From the IMG/VR virus record IMGVR_UViG_3300037487_000470, positions 1-34,809 of that record: a stretch of DNA of 34,809 nucleotides; one strand, 5' to 3'. Numbering within the stretch: position 1 is the stretch's first letter; every line of letters begins with the position of its first letter. The position numbers were made by a program, and so were the translations under genes. The DNA comes from a virus. Shown piece after piece: positions 9,681-34,809 of the stretch. Below the pieces are notes generated by a model, which worked only from the letters and a program-made list of their open reading frames with translations, was not told where the DNA came from and did no database searches.

Positions 9681-10535
9681 TTAATCGTTTATCCAAGTTC
9701 TAAAATCTGCATTAGGTGCTGATGCCCAAGTCGCTGGTGTTGTTCCCCACTTCTTTGGGTTAATCCATAATTCACATATACTACAACTAACATAGTTTTC
9801 TAAGGGTAAGGCTAATATAGGAAGGTTTACATAATCCCAAGCATCACCACTTATCTGTTCTATTATATTATAACAAATTAAATTATTATAATTCGTTGAG
9901 CCTCCTGGAACTATTTTAGTAGAAAATACTTGTCCTACTTCTGCACTCCCACTTATCACCGCCGTATACTCATCACCACTCAAACACTCTTTAATTAAAT
10001 AACCATTATCTAAGGGGTTAATCAAAAAAAAAAGACAACGATTTTTATCATTGTGAGTAGTAAGGCTAAAGGTTGCCACCCATCCTGCCAACCCATTATC
10101 AAACCTATCTGCGAAAGGTATACATTCAATTTCACCATCTATATCAAACCCTGCTATTCCTCTCTGAGTATAAGATGTTAAATCATTCAAAATACCTAAT
10201 GTATTAGAATGAATATATACATCATCATCTACACCAAAGAAAGGAATTACTTGCTTATTAGTTTCATCTTCACTTTGATTATTTTTATTCTTTCCTTTAT
10301 CTGCTACTACTAATTCAATAGTATAGGTTGTTACATTTGTTCCAAAGACTGTATTAATTATATTAACATTTCCAATTGGATACATTGGATATTCTTTCAA
10401 ATCCATATGTTGTAAATCACCATAGGTAGCAACACCAATACTAGGATGGTTCTTCATTATCGTTTTGAAATAATTTAGAACATTATAGTAGAGTGTATAA
10501 TTTATTCCGGTGTTAGCTATTATCTGTTGAGGCAT
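9681..10535 (-). CDS. Connector-region protein, longer paralog of the next gene upstream (284 aa)
   Basis: Residues 1-172 align without gaps to the neighbouring 172-residue protein (shared GINYTLYYNVLNYFK/GVNYTLYYNLINWFK, ADKGKNKNNQS, NTLGILNDLT, GLAGWV, TTHNDKNRCLF). The match stops exactly at a run of ten T (10024-10033). Beyond it lies an extension of about 110 residues (VSCSICELWINPKKWGTTP) with no internal Met, so it can only be made as a fusion. A shift of one base either way at the run would stop within a few codons, giving a short form like the paralog. Position after portal and adaptor suggests a neck or tail-terminator role; the fold is unknown to me. Confidence 0.55.
   Translation of the reverse strand: MPQQIIANTGINYTLYYNVLNYFKTIMKNHPSIGVATYGDLQHMDLKEYPMYPIGNVNIINTVFGTNVTTYTIELVVADKGKNKNNQSEDETNKQVIPFFGVDDDVYIHSNTLGILNDLTSYTQRGIAGFDIDGEIECIPFADRFDNGLAGWVATFSLTTHNDKNRCLFFLINPLDNGYLIKECLSGDEYTAVISGSAEVGQVFSTKIVPGGSTNYNNLICYNIIEQISGDAWDYVNLPILALPLENYVSCSICELWINPKKWGTTPATWASAPNADFRTWIND
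10024..10033 (-). other. T10 homopolymer at a domain boundary (possible slippage site)
   Basis: Read on the minus strand, codons CTT TTT TTT TTG cross ten consecutive T exactly where similarity to the paralogous protein ends. The zero frame reads into the extension, while -1 and +1 frames stop almost at once. It could be a programmed slippage site, a phase-variable tract or a place where assembly length is uncertain. Confidence 0.45.
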
Positions 10536-10537
10536 AA

Positions 10538-11056
10538 TTAATATAATTCAAATAGACAACGATTTTTATCATTGTGTGTTGTTAGTGTAAATGTTGATAC
10601 CCACCCTGCTAATCCATTATTATATTCATCTGCAAAAGGTTTACAAGTTATATTATCGTTTATTTCAAATCCAACAATACTTCTTTGTGTATAATCTGTT
10701 AAATCATTTAAGATACCCAAAGTATTACTCTGAATATCTATCACATCATTAACTCCGTAGAAAGGTATAACTTGATTATTAGTTTCACTTTCGCTTTGAT
10801 TATTCTTATTTTTACCTTTATCTGCTACTATTAACTGAACATTAAATCTACTTTCGTTTTCACTAAATGTAGTTGATAATATATTAACATTTCCCATTGG
10901 ATATTTAGGATATTGCTCATCATCTAATACATCAATATTACCATACGATACTTGTAGTATAGAAGGATGTTCATCCATTATATTCTTAAACCAATTTATT
11001 AGATTGTAATATAAGGTATAGTTAACTCCCGCATTATGTAGGATAGCTGTACTCAT
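10538..11056 (-). CDS. Connector-region protein, shorter paralog (172 aa)
   Basis: I place the start at ATG 11056, one base after the preceding stop, because MSTAILHNAGVNYTLYYN then aligns residue for residue with the paralog's MPQQIIANTGINYTLYYN. An upstream TTG at 11077 would overlap the previous gene and has no counterpart in the paralog. The protein is mixed alpha/beta with a conserved ADKGKNKNNQSESETN segment. The pair looks like a tandem duplication with later gain or loss of a C-terminal extension. By position (portal, adaptor, then this pair) it may be a head-tail joining or tail-terminator protein. No named family recognised. Confidence 0.6.
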   Translation of the reverse strand: MSTAILHNAGVNYTLYYNLINWFKNIMDEHPSILQVSYGNIDVLDDEQYPKYPMGNVNILSTTFSENESRFNVQLIVADKGKNKNNQSESETNNQVIPFYGVNDVIDIQSNTLGILNDLTDYTQRSIVGFEINDNITCKPFADEYNNGLAGWVSTFTLTTHNDKNRCLFELY

Positions 11057-11057
11057 A

Positions 11058-11576
11058 TTATAATTGTATTCCGCCAAAGTATTGGTTCGTCATATCAGGA
11101 TAAATCTGTGTTTGATTACCTACTGTTTCTAAATACTGAGGAATATTTTGAGAATAAGAAATAAGATAGTTTTGTAATCTTAATGCGTAATACTCAGCAT
11201 TATTCTGTGATTTTGAAAGTAAGTAATCTATTTCAGTTTTACCAGGTGCTGAACCTTGCTCTGATGTAAATTTAACTGCACCATTAGATTTGAATTGAAT
11301 AGAACTGAAAGGAATATACTCTACACAACTATACCATATCAAAGTATTTTTAATATGGTCATCTAAAAGGTCCTGATAATATACCGATAAACTACTAACT
11401 GTATTAGCTATTATTCTATCTTGTAAAAAATCAAATAGGACAGTTCCTAATAAATTTTTTAAGTATTTATCTTGTGCCGTTCTAACAAAAGGTAACAGAG
11501 CATCAGCATCTAATGCTCCCTGCAATGGTGAGTTTTTAATTATATCGTTTCTAGTTATAAAAAGTGCGTATGCCAT
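11058..11576 (-). CDS. Head-tail connector adaptor-like protein (172 aa)
   Basis: This mostly helical protein begins MAYALFITRNDIIKNSPLQG and contains LLPFVRTAQDKYLKNLLGT (about 27-45) and DLLDDHIKNTLIWYSCVEY (about 69-87). The pattern fits phage head-tail adaptor proteins, and I recall similar proteins in Bacteroidota phages listed as DUF6712, from memory only. It lies two bases after the portal stop and one base before the connector-like pair. It probably forms a ring under the portal. The C-terminus (QIYPDMTNQYFGGIQL) is extended and may reach a neighbour. Confidence 0.55.
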   Translation of the reverse strand: MAYALFITRNDIIKNSPLQGALDADALLPFVRTAQDKYLKNLLGTVLFDFLQDRIIANTVSSLSVYYQDLLDDHIKNTLIWYSCVEYIPFSSIQFKSNGAVKFTSEQGSAPGKTEIDYLLSKSQNNAEYYALRLQNYLISYSQNIPQYLETVGNQTQIYPDMTNQYFGGIQL

Positions 11577-16169: not shown

Positions 16170-17690
16170 TTAACAAAGTAAATTATTAGTAATGTAAGAA
16201 TAATTCTGTTCTATTTCTAATTGAGATAAAGGCTTATTATAAAGTAATAAACTATTAGTGACTCCTTTCCAATATGTTGCATCCCCATTTGTATTAAATC
16301 CAAACTTTAATGGTGAGGTAGATGCATTAAATGCATTAATTATGAATTGTGATGATACACTAGATATTAATGTTTGATTTATATATAAATTCATAAATTG
16401 CCCACCGCCAAGAGTACATACAATAGTTACTAATACAGGTGTATTTGCAACAGAACCAGTCCAAGGTAATTGAATATCACTACCAGCTTGATCTCTGAAT
16501 ACAAATTTATCTGCATATGGTTCCCAAATTGTATCCCAACCATCATTATAAAAATCTTTAACAAAGAAATCTCTACCAACGGCCGTTGTATCTATTGTTC
16601 CATAATATTGCATTGTCCAACTACTACTTGGTTGTCCTACTAATGTAGCTGGGAATGTTACATAATTATCAGTTCCATTAAATGTATAACCTAAACTTCC
16701 GCTTAATACTAATGCACTTCCGCTCACTAATCCATTATTTCCATTACCACTCTTATCATTCCAAACACTACCCGAAAGTGTATCACATCCTGTAAACAAT
16801 ACTAAACCATCTGTTACTACTGTTGTAGGTGCTAGTGTAGTAGTTGTTGTTGTAGTTGTAGTAGTTGTTGTTGTAGTAGGTATTGATGCACTTAAGAATG
16901 GTAACCATCCTGCTGCTAATGATGATGATACTTGTGTTATTTCTGCATCTGATAATGCTCTATTCCATACAACAAAAGATTGTATATCACCTGCCCATGC
17001 ACTATCAAATCCGCCGGATGAAGAATTACCTATAAATAAATTAGTAGGATTAGGACCTAAATTTCCAACTACTGAGCCGGTTGTTTTATATGTACTACCT
17101 GTATCTAGTAATGCCGTCGGCTGTATTTGTGTTTCAAAAATTGTTCTATTCCATTTTGCACTAAATAGCGCTTTAGGTACTGTCTCATATCCACCAAATC
17201 CTGTTTTATACCATCCATATAAATTTACATTTTGATAATATGGACTACCTGCCGCGTATGGTACATGATTAATAAGAGTATTCGTACTTACACCATCTAT
17301 CCACCATCTTCTTCCTGATCCACCACTCCACACTAATGAAGTTCCTTTCCACCAATATGTCAATGTAGGATTAGTTCCATACTCACCATTTTGCGCTGCT
17401 CTTTCTGCTGTTACAATTAATGTATAGCCTGGACTTAATTCATTCAAAAAGGATTGTGAAGAAAATAATATATAATTTGATGCACTAAAATATAATGCTT
17501 GAGTTGAATTATTCCACGTTGCATTAACACTTCCCGTAACACCATATGCTAAATCAGTAATTAAATTTGGATTAGATGCTGGATTAAATGATGATGAACA
17601 TCTTGTATCTATATAGAATGCGTAATCCGATGGGAATGCTCTTGTCGCTACATCTCCACTATCAAATAATCCTGTTGCTAAATAAATCAT
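16170..17690 (-). CDS. Two-domain LamG/concanavalin-like virion protein with poly-Thr linker
   Basis: This 506-residue protein has two concanavalin-like (LamG) domains. The first (about 20-265) includes WAGDIQSFVVWNRALSDAEI, the usual last strand of these domains. Residues 272-285 are fourteen Thr in a row. The second domain (about 290-503) includes WNDKSGNGNNGLVSGSALVL, SSSWTMQYYGT and FGFNTNGDATYWKGVTNSLL. It is clearly related to the single LamG domain of the protein at 29848-30645. Such domains bind sugars or proteins, so it may be a fibre tip or head decoration that attaches to host glycans or mucus. The gene starts one base after the stop of the 398-residue fibre, suggesting they act together. 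Confidence 0.7.
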   Translation of the reverse strand: MIYLATGLFDSGDVATRAFPSDYAFYIDTRCSSSFNPASNPNLITDLAYGVTGSVNATWNNSTQALYFSASNYILFSSQSFLNELSPGYTLIVTAERAAQNGEYGTNPTLTYWWKGTSLVWSGGSGRRWWIDGVSTNTLINHVPYAAGSPYYQNVNLYGWYKTGFGGYETVPKALFSAKWNRTIFETQIQPTALLDTGSTYKTTGSVVGNLGPNPTNLFIGNSSSGGFDSAWAGDIQSFVVWNRALSDAEITQVSSSLAAGWLPFLSASIPTTTTTTTTTTTTTTLAPTTVVTDGLVLFTGCDTLSGSVWNDKSGNGNNGLVSGSALVLSGSLGYTFNGTDNYVTFPATLVGQPSSSWTMQYYGTIDTTAVGRDFFVKDFYNDGWDTIWEPYADKFVFRDQAGSDIQLPWTGSVANTPVLVTIVCTLGGGQFMNLYINQTLISSVSSQFIINAFNASTSPLKFGFNTNGDATYWKGVTNSLLLYNKPLSQLEIEQNYSYITNNLLC

Positions 17691-19240: not shown

Positions 19241-19501
19241 TTAAGACATTTTTCTTAGTGACTCTTTATGCATTAAATCTTCTAATTGTATCTTATCTGC
19301 TTTGTAAGCGAGATATAGTAAACATTTCTCTAAAGGGTGTTCTACTGCGGTATCAATCTTATCTATATCCTCACCACTTAACGCCATGATTGTAGAATAA
19401 TTTCTCCACTTCTTTCCAAAATTGACCTGATGTTGGGTTGGGTCACCTCCTCCTTCGTAGAGTTCAGGATACTTTTCACTAAGTCCGTTGACAAATTTAC
19501 A
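19241..19501 (-). CDS. Tail assembly chaperone second part, in the -1 frame
   Basis: If the ribosome slips one base back on the T9 run, translation continues CKFVNGLSEKYPELYEGGGD and on for 86 residues to the stop at 19241. The end, from FGKKWRNYSTIMALSGEDID through HPLEKCLLYLAYKADKIQLE, has the pattern W...Y..I..L...DI.KID.....PL...L.YLAYK.DK..LE that I associate with tail chaperone C-terminal parts. An internal ATG at 19387 could also give a separate 48-residue protein that overlaps the zero-frame stop by 10 bases. The long open frame and protein-like sequence support coding. Whether the extension is made by slippage or the T run is one base short in the assembly is not settled. Confidence 0.6.
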   Translation of the reverse strand, partial: CKFVNGLSEKYPELYEGGGDPTQHQVNFGKKWRNYSTIMALSGEDIDKIDTAVEHPLEKCLLYLAYKADKIQLEDLMHKESLRKMS

Positions 19502-20004
19502 AAAAAAAACAGTGTACCGAAGTGCTTATCCATTGATACATCTAAGAACTTATCACTATGGACTTCGCCTGTATATCTTTCTATCTCATATGTATCTCTT
19601 ACCTTCTTTGTTACAGGTCTATAAAGTATACTCATTATCTTTGCCCAATTCTCGTCAATGGTTATAGTATCGTATTGTGTTATATCTGCATATGCACCAT
19701 AAGACATATTAGATAAGTTAGGTTCTAATCCATACTCTACACCATCTATGGATATCAATTGCTGTAATGGGTGATTAGTGTTTCCTATCCAACTGCTTAT
19801 CTCTGAACTAATGTTAACATAATCTCCTCTACCTAATCCAATTAAATCATCACTATCAATACCACATAGATAAGTTACTAATACAGCCGCCTGTGCTTCT
19901 TCGTTATCTTCGTAGTTCTTTAATTCCTTTTGTAATGCTAAATACTTTCTTAGTGTAATATCCTCATAACTTTGTGGGATACTGATTTCTATTTCTTTTC
20001 TCAT
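19378..20004 (-). CDS. Tail assembly chaperone, zero-frame product (208 aa)
   Basis: The N-terminus MRKEIEISIPQSYEDITLRK matches the start of chaperone-like proteins in Bacteroidota phages ('v.iP.s..diTl.qy......'). The middle is mixed helix/strand (GVEYGLEPNLSNMSYGAYAD). At codons CTG TTT TTT TTT GTA (19512-19498) a T TTT TTT slip site occurs inside the frame; the zero frame goes on for about 43 residues to the stop at 19378. In phages such as lambda, the G and GT chaperones are made by a -1 shift of just this kind. The tape measure gene is about 15 kb away, an unusual distance. Role from pattern, slip site and context. Confidence 0.6.
   Translation of the reverse strand: MRKEIEISIPQSYEDITLRKYLALQKELKNYEDNEEAQAAVLVTYLCGIDSDDLIGLGRGDYVNISSEISSWIGNTNHPLQQLISIDGVEYGLEPNLSNMSYGAYADITQYDTITIDENWAKIMSILYRPVTKKVRDTYEIERYTGEVHSDKFLDVSMDKHFGTLFFFVNLSTDLVKSILNSTKEEVTQPNIRSILERSGEIILQSWR
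19501..19509 (-). other. T9 slippery site
   Basis: Nine T on the minus strand are read as TTT TTT TTT, preceded by CTG. The heptamer T TTT TTT fits the X XXY YYZ rule for -1 frameshifting. The downstream -1 frame is open for 86 codons. Confidence 0.55.
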
Positions 20005-20199: not shown

Positions 20200-21387
20200 T
20201 TAGTATTGATATCTTCCTATTGTGATTGCGTACTTACCTTTTGCTACTGCCTTCTGAGATAACTTCATCATTGCCACATAACGAAGTGCATCTATTAAAT
20301 GGTCTAGTCCACCTTCGGGTACATCAGTAGTATAACCATGCTTATCGGTTTGGTATTGATAGGCATACATCTCATTGATTAAGTTCTGTGATTTCTTATT
20401 GATGTGTATGTTATAGTTTTGTAAGACACCTATACCAAACTTAATACTATCCGGTCCTTTCTTAACAGGCTTTGCATTGAACCCACTACGATATAGTTCT
20501 TCTACTAAGCGAGGTTCTGCACTATCACACCATATCTCTTCACTCTTTGTAATATCTAATGATTTTAATTTATCTGCTATATCCTTTGTAACTAATCCTT
20601 TATCATACATTAGTTCTTCAACATATACTTCATCGTTATGTTTGTATACAGCACATAAAGTAGTTGGGTCATTACTAAAACCAAAGTCCATGCCAAACGC
20701 AACGAACTCAGCACTAAACGCATCAGTATCTTCATTCCAATCATCAACGATATCAAAACCAAACACAGCTTTATCATTAGGAGCAAATTCACCTTTTCCA
20801 TATATCTTCCAATATTTAGGGTTCTTAATTTCTAAATCTTCAATCGCTGTAATTATCTCCTTCTCTAAGTATGGGTTGTCTCTATATGTGGTGACGAACC
20901 TATCACAATCTTGCATTTGTCTAAGCCAATGATAGGGTGAGATAGTAGGGTTGTATGCGAGTATGATACGATTAGTAGTTCTGATAGATAACTGAAAATA
21001 ACTTTCTTCATCAATCTCACTTGCCTCATCAATAAAAAGTATATCAGATTTAATACCACGTAACTTATCAGCATCATCAGTAGAGAGGAATTGAATAGAA
21101 CTATCGTACAACTTATAGACCCTATCAGTAATATTAAAGTTCTCATCTCGCCATAAATTTAATTTTGTAAGAATATCTTTGAAATCTTTTATAATAGTTC
21201 TTTTAAGACTTGGTATCGTCTTTCTTACTATTGTTATTGTAAGTCCTTTTTGTAATGCTTCTACTATTATCCATTGTAATATACCATAAGATTTACCACT
21301 ACGGGTACCTCCTATGTGCTGTGTTACTCTACTCTTTGCATCTAATAGGTGTTGGAAACTAATCGTTGTGTCTATCTGTACTTCCAC
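20200..21387 (-). CDS. terL: Terminase large subunit
   Basis: This 395-residue protein is the DNA packaging motor. It has a Walker A motif GGTRSGKS (26-33), a Walker B with catalytic Glu ILFIDE (116-121) and a coupling-like segment ILAYNP. The C-terminal nuclease domain has FGMDFGFSNDPTT (D234), IWCDSAEP (D288) and DHLIDALRY (D362, D366), the acidic residues that bind metal. It belongs to the PBSX/Terminase_3-like group by these motifs. Its start overlaps the small subunit gene by 29 bases, indicating coupled translation. It cuts concatemers and pumps DNA through the portal; the portal gene is about 8 kb downstream rather than next to it. Confidence 0.93.
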   Translation of the reverse strand: MEVQIDTTISFQHLLDAKSRVTQHIGGTRSGKSYGILQWIIVEALQKGLTITIVRKTIPSLKRTIIKDFKDILTKLNLWRDENFNITDRVYKLYDSSIQFLSTDDADKLRGIKSDILFIDEASEIDEESYFQLSIRTTNRIILAYNPTISPYHWLRQMQDCDRFVTTYRDNPYLEKEIITAIEDLEIKNPKYWKIYGKGEFAPNDKAVFGFDIVDDWNEDTDAFSAEFVAFGMDFGFSNDPTTLCAVYKHNDEVYVEELMYDKGLVTKDIADKLKSLDITKSEEIWCDSAEPRLVEELYRSGFNAKPVKKGPDSIKFGIGVLQNYNIHINKKSQNLINEMYAYQYQTDKHGYTTDVPEGGLDHLIDALRYVAMMKLSQKAVAKGKYAITIGRYQY

Positions 21388-29847: not shown

Positions 29848-30645
29848 TTAGAAACAAGCATCTATCGTACTCAATGTGTTGTAATTGTTTGTAACTTCTT
29901 CTGGCGTTAATACTCTATTATATAAAATTATATCACTCATTGTTCCTTTGAAATAAGTTGCATCACTATTCGCGTTAAAACCAAATGTTAACGAGCCAGT
30001 AGATACACTAAAAACAGCTATATCAGAAAGTGCTGAACTTGATACAAATGTTTCATTATAATATGCAAATGCTTGGTTTGTTGTACTATTTACTGTCATA
30101 GTGTATAATATTTTAGTTGCAGGAGTATTTGTAACATCGTAGTTTCTATCTTGTCCACCTACATCTCTAAATACTAATTTTTGTCCTAAAGGTCCGTATA
30201 TTGTATCCCATCCATCTTCAAAATCAGTTTTACAAAATAAATCTCTATTTGAACCTGTATTATAAAAAGTACCATACCACTGCATTGTCCAACTACTACT
30301 CGGAGTTGCGGTTAGAGAAGCAGTATAAGTTAAAAAGTTATCCGTTCCGTTGAATGCTAATCCTAATGAGCCACTCTGTACTAATGCACTTCCGCTTACT
30401 AATGCGTGATTACCATTACCACTTACATCATACCATACTGAGCCACTCATTGAACAACATCTATTGTATAATACTAATCCCTCAGAAACAATTGTTGATG
30501 GTGGACATGTAGTTGATGTTGATGTTGTAGTAGTAGTTGATGTTGATGTTGTAGTAGTTGTAGTAGTTGATACCGGAGCATCACCTCTACCTATTCTACT
30601 ACCCATTGCACTACTTAAAATTATATTTTCAAAAGTGTTTATCAT
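29848..30645 (-). CDS. LamG-domain virion protein with Thr/Ser linker (265 aa)
   Basis: A short N-terminal segment (about 1-25, TFENIILSSAMGSRIGRGDA) may dock to the virion. Residues 26-46 are almost all Thr and Ser. The LamG/concanavalin-like domain (about 50-263) has WYDVSGNGNHALVSGSALVQ, SSSWTMQWYGTF, GWDTIYGPLGQKLVFRD and FGFNANSDATYFKGTMSDII. About half its residues match the second LamG domain of the 506-residue protein by eye, so one copy came from the other or both from a common source. It is probably a surface protein that binds glycans. One base separates it from the 93-residue spike-base-like gene. Confidence 0.7.
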   Translation of the reverse strand: MINTFENIILSSAMGSRIGRGDAPVSTTTTTTTSTSTTTTTSTSTTCPPSTIVSEGLVLYNRCCSMSGSVWYDVSGNGNHALVSGSALVQSGSLGLAFNGTDNFLTYTASLTATPSSSWTMQWYGTFYNTGSNRDLFCKTDFEDGWDTIYGPLGQKLVFRDVGGQDRNYDVTNTPATKILYTMTVNSTTNQAFAYYNETFVSSSALSDIAVFSVSTGSLTFGFNANSDATYFKGTMSDIILYNRVLTPEEVTNNYNTLSTIDACF

Positions 30646-32353: not shown

Positions 32354-34243
32354 TTATCCACCACTCAGAGTTGCTGCTCTATTGGTTCTTCTATCTAATG
32401 CTTGCATTGATGAAACTTGTTGCGAGATTACATATGCCTGAATTGGTTTTTGTACTCCACCTATTGTTTCCCCTATTTTACTTGTCGGGTCTTGTCCACC
32501 ACTTGTATTAATTTGTGGTGCTGATGCCGCTGCGATAGTTGGTAATGCAGGTGCTGCCATTCCTCCACTTCCTCCACTACTTCCACCACCACCCGGAACT
32601 TGTACTGCATTAATTTCATTGATTGCTTGCACACCAGTCGCGATTGCAGCCGCTGTTCCTAATACTGCTGATATAGTATTGATAGTAACCCAAGGTTGTC
32701 CAAAGGTTAATGGAGATGCTGCAATTGCTTTTGCATTTGCTATTGAGTTATTAACCCATATCTCACCTATCGCCGCTGCTTTACCGATTACTAAACCTGC
32801 AATTGCTAATGCTTTATTCTTTCCCGCTAATTGACCTAATGAATTACCTATTTGAGTTGCTACTTGTAATCTTCCTAATTGAATTTCTTTTTCAGCAATA
32901 AATGCTTTTAACTGAATATCTTTTAGATTTTTAGCATGCTCTATGTTTATTGCTGCAATCTTAGTTGCATTATTTTTAGCATTAGCTAATTTAATTTGAT
33001 ATGCTTCATTTTCAATTGCAATAGAATTATCTAAGTATGCCTGTGAACCTTCTGTTAGAACTTTTTGTTGAGCTTCTAATAAAAGTAATTCATCACTCAT
33101 TGCCTGAATGCGTTTATTTTCCGTTTCTTCATCTAACTCTTTTAGTCTCTTTGCTAATTGAACTTCAAAATCAATAATTGCTTTAGCATTATCATCGTGA
33201 ATTTTTTGCTCCTGTTCACTAAATGATTTTAACTGATTTAATCTATCTGCATCTAATTGTATTTTTTCTGCTTCTACTGCTTTATATTCAACACTATCTT
33301 TCTTATATAATACCTGCTTATCTTCTAAATCTTTCTTTTTAAGGTCATATGATTTCTTTGCAAATTCTTGTTCTACTGCTAATTTTTGTTCTTCACTAAA
33401 TGCAGTTTCCATTGCTTCGGCTTTCAATTTAGCTAAACGAGCATCATCTAACTTATCTTCCACCTCCATTCTTTTTAACTTTTCTGCTAATGCTTTATCT
33501 GCATCATCCTTCTGAGTTTTAAGATTTTCTCTTTGAGTTTTAGTTATCTTTTTAGTACCTTCTTCAAATCTTTGTACCCCAGCATCATATGCTTCAACTG
33601 TTTTACTCCAACTACCTTTAAGTTGCTCATATCCCGCAGTAATACTATCAGTATCTAATGTGAATATACCTTTAAGGATTTTACCAACACCTTGTCCTGC
33701 TTGCGAAATTAATGTAAAAAATGCAACAAACGCTGAATATAATTTACCAATACCTGAGGTTACATATGGTAATGCCTTTAATGCTAACTCTAAAAATATA
33801 TCTAAAATAGGTTGCATTACTTCTATAATACCACCAAATATTTTTTCTAATCCAATTAGCAATGGTTCTAATTTTTTCATAGAACCTTCAGTTTGGCTAA
33901 ATGCCGCAACTAATCCAGCTATAAGTGAAACTACTAAACCAATACCTGTCGCTTTTAATGCTGCACCAAATGATTGTGTAGATAATTTTAATTTATTTAA
34001 TGCTCCACCTAATGCACCTAAAGGTCCACCTGCAGACTCTAATGTATCTATCCAATCGGATGAAGTATTCTTAGCTGATTTAATTTTATCTTCTAAATCA
34101 TCAATTTCATTGTATATCCTTTTGAATTCTTCAGAACCAGCCGCAACATTCTTTAACTCTTTCTTAAGAGCTTTAAGCTGAGCAATTGATGGTTCTGCAT
34201 CTACATCAATTTCAATACCTACTTTAATTTTCTTATCAGCCAT
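32354..34243 (-). CDS. Tape measure protein (629 aa)
   Basis: The N-terminus is coiled (SIAQLKALKKELKNVAAGSE). Two hydrophobic stretches lie at about 96-116 (ALKATGIGLVVSLIAGLVAAF) and about 156-195. Then comes a long charged coiled coil (about 225-450), a second hydrophobic part (IAGLVIGKAAAIGEIWVNNS) and a Gly-rich hinge (GGGGSSGGSGG). The C-terminus PIQAYVISQQVSSMQALDRR matches the end of tape measure proteins in Bacteroidota phages. At about 0.15 nm per residue a tail of roughly 90-95 nm is expected. The chaperone that normally precedes it is about 15 kb away. Confidence 0.85.
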   Translation of the reverse strand: MADKKIKVGIEIDVDAEPSIAQLKALKKELKNVAAGSEEFKRIYNEIDDLEDKIKSAKNTSSDWIDTLESAGGPLGALGGALNKLKLSTQSFGAALKATGIGLVVSLIAGLVAAFSQTEGSMKKLEPLLIGLEKIFGGIIEVMQPILDIFLELALKALPYVTSGIGKLYSAFVAFFTLISQAGQGVGKILKGIFTLDTDSITAGYEQLKGSWSKTVEAYDAGVQRFEEGTKKITKTQRENLKTQKDDADKALAEKLKRMEVEDKLDDARLAKLKAEAMETAFSEEQKLAVEQEFAKKSYDLKKKDLEDKQVLYKKDSVEYKAVEAEKIQLDADRLNQLKSFSEQEQKIHDDNAKAIIDFEVQLAKRLKELDEETENKRIQAMSDELLLLEAQQKVLTEGSQAYLDNSIAIENEAYQIKLANAKNNATKIAAINIEHAKNLKDIQLKAFIAEKEIQLGRLQVATQIGNSLGQLAGKNKALAIAGLVIGKAAAIGEIWVNNSIANAKAIAASPLTFGQPWVTINTISAVLGTAAAIATGVQAINEINAVQVPGGGGSSGGSGGMAAPALPTIAAASAPQINTSGGQDPTSKIGETIGGVQKPIQAYVISQQVSSMQALDRRTNRAATLSGG

Positions 34244-34391: not shown

Positions 34392-34809
34392 TTAAACTAA
34401 ATTAGTGAGGGGAGAGATTTTTTCTACCTTTTGAATTGCTTCATAATATAAATTAGATGCAAATTCTTTATTAAATTTCAAATCTAAATTATATGGTAAT
34501 TTATTTGTATATTCTCCTTTGTAAAATAAATCACTTCTATCTGATGTAACCCCTGCATTATGTAAGAATTGTCTATTGTGTAATATATGAACCGAGTCTG
34601 TACTCCAACCAAATGCTAAATCATTACTTACTTTAACTTCTTTTTCAAAATACCATGCGTTCCATAATAAACTCCACATACCTGCTGTCCATTTTTGTAT
34701 TGGATAATCGTTTGGATGTTTATTAACATATAAATGTTCGGTTTCACAAAACATTCTATATAATGCTATACTATCTTTTTCTACTTTATTCCAAAATGCA
34801 AATGTAGAA
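34392..34809 (-). CDS. Putative glycosyltransferase, C-terminal part (continues from 689-1)
   Basis: This is the rest of the gene that starts at 689. The unique part is 34392-34638; 34639-34809 repeats bases 1-171. The part includes YPIQKWTAGMWSLLWNAWYF (residues about 207-226), FGWSTDSVHILHNRQFLHNA and NLYYEAIQKVEKISPLTNLV at the end. HNAGV may hold the metal-binding His of the GT-A fold. Read across the junction, the whole protein is about 311 residues. Confidence 0.65.
   Translation of the reverse strand, partial: STFAFWNKVEKDSIALYRMFCETEHLYVNKHPNDYPIQKWTAGMWSLLWNAWYFEKEVKVSNDLAFGWSTDSVHILHNRQFLHNAGVTSDRSDLFYKGEYTNKLPYNLDLKFNKEFASNLYYEAIQKVEKISPLTNLV

Follow-up and report, generated by a model that had tools for sequence, protein, structure and literature searches.

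A conserved two-frame gene, probably for a tail assembly chaperone, joined at a T9 or T10 run in an uncultured phage clade

We found that a gene close to the terminase large subunit gene (terL) of IMG/VR virus record IMGVR_UViG_3300037487_000470 consists of two conserved, overlapping reading frames which are joined at a conserved run of nine T, with the second frame at −1 relative to the first. On balance we think it probable that this gene encodes a tail assembly chaperone in two forms, the frame being slipped most likely by RNA polymerase. The phages which carry it belong to a large, uncultured clade related to flavobacterial phages. Among frameshifted tail chaperones, a known kind of gene, it stands as a conserved two-frame gene which is new as a family and has uncommon features.

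The window, by which we mean the whole stretch of DNA analysed, is 34,809 bases long. Its ends (1-171 and 34639-34809) overlap by 171 bp at 99.4% identity and the record is therefore probably a complete, or nearly complete, genome which is circular or terminally redundant. The initial annotation had placed the gene correctly and its description of a 208-codon frame containing nine T agreed with the sequence (Table 1). The run lies at offset 495 of the gene, in codon phase 0. From the first TTT the zero frame stays open for 43 codons, to a stop at 19378-19380, and the −1 frame is likewise open as described, starting at the run and ending in a TAA at 19241-19243; its length of 88 codons takes in two TTT within the run. 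Elsewhere in the window, three proteins were found to have long Thr-rich linkers (TTTTTTTSTTT; 703-1689, 16170-17690 and 29848-30645 (-)), and those at 16170-17690 and 29848-30645 (-) have similar domains after the linker (GLVLF..C..LSGSVWND..GNGN..LVSGSAL).

Table 1 Coordinates of the two-frame gene, the second gene with a conserved run, and two landmark genes in the window
Feature	Coordinates	Strand	Remarks
Whole two-frame gene	20004..19241	-	
Zero-frame ORF, 208 aa	20004..19378	-	contains CTG TTT TTT TTT GTA
N-terminal part common to both products, 165 aa	19510..20004	-	41 relatives, 26 invariant columns; AF2 pLDDT 86.9
T9 slip run, zero-frame codons TTT TTT TTT	19501..19509	-	exactly nine T
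Zero-frame C-terminal tail, 43 codons including run, and stop TAA	19378..19509	-	short product 208 aa; conserved peptide
−1 frame C-terminal part, 88 codons and stop TAA (19243..19241)	19241..19507	-	predicted long product 254 aa
Dual-coded overlap of both tails	19381..19507	-	synonymous identity observed/expected 1.44 in overlap core
Second late gene with conserved slip-type run, 284 aa	9681..10535	-	about 171 aa if the frame slips
T10 run, CTT TTT TTT TTG	10024..10033	-	stops close by in both other frames
Terminase large subunit gene (terL)	20200..21387	-	Pfam Terminase_3 8.9e-22
Probable tape measure protein, 629 aa	32354..34243	-	PHROG 1538 tape measure match weak, E=0.06

Relatives were collected using the fused protein as query (80 relatives), the C-terminal part alone as query (another 80 loci, out of 494 confirmed relatives) and P12024S-type proteins (further loci), and separate profiles for the N part (A1) and the C part (A2) were applied to them frame by frame. 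Among the matches listed, the C part was in the −1 frame relative to the N part in 168 of 168 related loci, with T9 at the joint in 141 and T10 in 27, a count in which some contigs appear twice; the 41 non-redundant genes contained T9 in 30 cases and T10 in 11. The −1 segment is itself a conserved protein (profile A2: 39 relatives, mean column identity 67%, 12 invariant residues) and this, together with its constant −1 relation at T9 or T10, indicates that it is more than a chance open frame. Homologues were also present in the isolated Nonlabens phages P12024S and P12024L. In P12024S the two profiles matched independently at a T9 (N part E = 1e−17; C part, in the −1 frame, E = 9e−12), and the homologue has been entered in GenBank as two hypothetical proteins.

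In a scan for distant relatives whose N parts have diverged strongly, 72 loci were collected, and the C part was recognisable in 71. The −1 relation was found in 70 of these 71, at T9 or T10 in 67 of the 70, and T9 or T10 was present in 68 of the 71 loci with a detected C part. Among the exceptions, L393 is damaged in its N part, and two mutually identical loci from one genome (L431 and L432) have only T7 at the joint, which is exactly U_UUU_UUU (L431:1962-1968). At L424 (L424:1947-1956) a T10 joins N and C parts lying in one frame, and the −1 frame stops at once; this is either an error or a naturally occurring variant whose product slippage would shorten. In BFVD, a few proteins of 234-258 aa were hit by the N model as well as the C model, suggesting that a minority of relatives may be single-frame; with L424 counted in, the split is thus not quite universal. 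No prophage relatives were confirmed in a search of genome contigs, and the terminase-based neighbours Fpv5 and BV674P5 had no detectable homologue of the gene.

Coding selection also acts on the 43-60 codons which follow the run in the zero frame, so that both ends of the gene are conserved while overlapping in two frames. In 39 genes we re-drew the synonymous codons of the −1 protein and scored the open length of the zero frame: the simulated mean was about 9 codons with a minimum of 4-5, compared to an observed mean of 51 and minimum of 42. The overlap core contained 0 zero-frame stops, whereas about 81 were expected and none of 100 simulations had fewer than 68; pairwise identity in this frame was 56%, vs 39% in simulations which kept the −1 protein. 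The lack of stops and the raised identity indicate that the short product has a conserved tail of its own. Synonymous identity in the −1 frame (observed/expected) reached 1.44 in the overlap core; the N part gave 1.15 and the stretch after the overlap 1.11. In annotated phage chaperones the mean distance from slip site to stop is 26 nt (SEA-PHAGES set) or 36 nt (Xu set) (PMC10274946), whereas in these genes it is about 129-180 nt with the run included; beside these reported distances, coding selection on both frames over so long a stretch is unusual.

We then considered which machine slips. Each of the 45 distinct contexts has an in-register U_UUU_UUU heptamer, which is inevitable in any T9, and the number of T before/after this core is 2/0, 1/1, 1/2 or 2/1, as well as 0/2 in L422 and L433. 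On the N-part tree the position of the run has changed about 11 times, and no T8 was seen; T9 or T10 is kept in all codon phases, the one T7 genome being the exception. Selection therefore appears, from these alignments, to act on a total run length of at least 9 and not on the heptamer. A downstream stem-loop or pseudoknot stimulator was looked for in structure tests on the relatives and none was found (41 genes: mean z −0.03; alifold −0.26 kcal/mol, no covarying helix), and an SD-like motif lies upstream of the run in only 12 of the 41 genes, leaving no consistent stimulator. Such downstream structures or upstream SD-like elements are common at −1 ribosomal frameshift sites and are not obligatory. 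Coding runs of at least 7 A or T are avoided in this genome relative to synonymous-shuffled sequence (T: 3 vs 5.7 expected; A: 4 vs 15.4), and its coding regions hold two T runs of at least 9, both of which are conserved in relatives. In bacteria, transcriptional slippage becomes evident once A/T runs reach 9 (PMC1088944, PMC5009743).

Because run length is kept wherever the run sits with respect to the codons, without conserved RNA structure, we favour RNA polymerase over the ribosome as the probable slipping agent; such a slip is the most likely one as a homopolymer of at least 9 can re-pair along the RNA–DNA hybrid. The ribosome remains a serious rival. That the ribosome makes the same products from the same gene, by a −1 frameshift of the classical kind on U_UUU_UUU such as other phage tail chaperones use, is a realistic possibility which falls short of being likely: it accords with a heptamer in register in 45/45 contexts, with the G/GT and E/E' shifts cited in PMC5009743, all of which are ribosomal, and with the T7 genome, which keeps exactly the heptamer and favours the ribosome at least there. 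However, a ribosomal shift offers no reason for at least nine T to be kept in every codon phase, nor for the invariant T10 of the second gene described below, and it would have to work in these genes with neither conserved downstream structure nor a consistent SD-like stimulator. In the open-licence literature we found no report of transcriptional slippage in a tail chaperone, or of this gene family as frameshifted.

The other long run lies in a second late gene, where T10 was exact in 81 of 81 loci (39 non-redundant) with the pattern CTT TTT TTT TTR, although Leu and Phe codons otherwise vary. In all 39 non-redundant loci the −1 frame meets a stop within 2-6 codons of the T10 and the +1 frame meets one at once, although it should be noted that the +1 stops follow partly from the encoded amino acids. 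The gene is one of two adjacent paralogues (11077..10538 and 10535..9681 (-)), and the shorter, upstream one ends (RCLFELY*) where the other has its T10; a slipped product of the second gene would end at about residue 171, the end point of this paralogue. P12024S has a single short homologue of the pair, P12024S_41 (L082:12826-13242), and a solved-structure search with the second gene gave no significant relative. It may be, and we hold the matter to be evenly balanced, that the clade uses RNA-polymerase slippage at fixed T runs as a programmed means of setting the ratio between forms of two late proteins: the chaperone would be extended at T9/T10, where conserved tails overlap, and the second protein cut short at its invariant T10, with stops close by in both other frames.

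The identity of the two-frame protein was examined by family searches, in which the matches to tail families were all sub-threshold. Pfam Phage_TAC_7 (PF10109) was matched by 19 of the 41 members (best E 6.7e-4; 20.1 bits, below the cut-off of 25), PHROG 166 'tail protein' by 33 of 41 (best 1.5e-4) and PHROG 3140 'tail assembly chaperone' by 8 of 41 (best E 0.0039). A profile comparison (hhalign) with eleven relatives of P2 gpE gave P=0.009 over 39 columns, in the same stretch as the Phage_TAC_7 match. The single-sequence comparison with P2 gpE found nothing, a scan of viral contigs with P2 E returned only near-identical P2 copies, NCBIfam gave no match, and the N part matched no named curated family above cut-off. 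AlphaFold modelled the N part confidently (pLDDT 86.9), and the C part as mostly helical and with less certainty (pLDDT 71.6). Neither part had a significant solved-structure match in a PDB fold search; BFVD matches to the N part were mainly unnamed phage proteins, with one of the weaker ones named tail assembly chaperone (prob 0.80, E 0.059).

When the two-product design is also considered, the protein is best read as a tail chaperone, which we take to be likely. The initial annotation had called the gene a tail assembly chaperone: its two products by a −1 shift at the T run were upheld, and the sub-threshold Phage_TAC_7 and PHROG matches make the identity likely without securing it. We consider it rather doubtful that the two-product gene encodes some other late protein, for example a packaging or head-tail accessory protein. 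Such a protein would fit a gene beside terL both here, where it lies one small ORF downstream, and in P12024S, which has the same order, and the lack of a TAC family above cut-off or of a PDB fold match; it would not explain why independent weak matches point to Phage_TAC_7, PHROG 3140 and PHROG 166, nor a −1 two-product design typical of chaperones. It would also fit the distance from the tape measure gene. This distance had been noted in the initial annotation and was confirmed, the probable tape measure protein being encoded at 34243..32354 and the two-frame gene at 20004..19241. The tape measure assignment is a probable one based on protein character and the weak PHROG match, and the 629-aa protein has homologues in four related contigs. 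Tail chaperone genes usually lie directly upstream of the tape measure gene, a position which is not strictly defining; the two-frame gene does not lie there, and its position beside terL, a long way from the probable tape measure gene, is unusual.

Two further readings fared much worse. A phase-variable tract, in which the long product is turned on and off as run length varies within the population, would be in keeping with a homopolymer and with L424, whose T10 has both parts in one frame, but is very improbable: the −1 split is found with T9 and with T10 alike, flanking codons compensating, conservation extends to the zero-frame tail, and in-frame variants are essentially absent (1 of about 240 loci). 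The suggestion in the initial annotation that the T run is one base short in the assembly, the true gene having ten T and one plain frame, draws on the error-proneness of long homopolymers and again on L424, and was ruled out by the −1 split in 168/168 listed loci, 70/71 distant loci and the isolate P12024S, and by coding selection on a zero-frame tail which a plain single frame would not lead one to expect.

For the probable chaperone we propose the following mechanism. Without a slip, expression would yield the 208-aa protein, which ends in the conserved 43-residue tail. If a U is added in the copying of the T9, or if some equivalent −1 shift takes place, reading would continue in the −1 frame and yield a 254-aa protein with an 88-residue, predominantly helical domain; the two forms would have 165 residues in common and differ at the C-terminus. 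By analogy with lambda gpG/gpGT, we infer that coating of the tape measure protein would fall to the short form, and recruitment of tail tube subunits to the long form, presumed the rarer.

In phage lambda G/GT there is likewise one gene with two products which have a common N-terminal part, the long form being made by a −1 shift, and a role with the tape measure protein is probable here on the likeness of arrangement. The description of the gene as having the lambda G/GT arrangement thus holds for the two-product −1 shift, but not beyond it: the zero-frame tail here is a second conserved coding sequence of 43-60 codons in a double-coded overlap, T9/T10 is conserved instead of a short heptamer, and the gene neighbours terL, with the probable tape measure gene far away. 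P2 gpE / E+E' (PF10109) also acquires a second C-terminal domain by a −1 shift and has weak profile similarity over about 39 residues; P2 E, however, has 91 aa and its gene lies immediately before that for the tape measure protein, and the match here is below the Pfam cut-off. Genes 38/39 of Nonlabens phage P12024S (PHROG 32199) are a true homologue, with the same N and C parts, T9, −1 relation and place after terL, differing in being annotated as two hypothetical proteins and in a shorter zero-frame tail (about 26 codons). Thermus dnaX (A9), Shigella mxiE/spa33/mxiA and IS element fusions likewise have a coding run of about 9 with an extended or truncated second product, and likewise avoid such runs elsewhere (PMC1088944, PMC5009743); these are bacterial or IS genes, whereas the slippage proposed here is read from sequence. 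The T10 of the second gene resembles Thermus dnaX, in which slipped transcripts meet a nearby stop (PMC1088944).

These results have a consequence for annotation, as the long product is missed by automated methods, the P12024S gene having been entered as two hypothetical proteins. The part of greatest interest is the putative slippage by RNA polymerase. Frameshifting in tail chaperones is taken to be ribosomal, and polymerase slippage, if true, would be another route to the same product ratio. Run length would then be a simple mutable handle on this ratio and, through it, on tail assembly.
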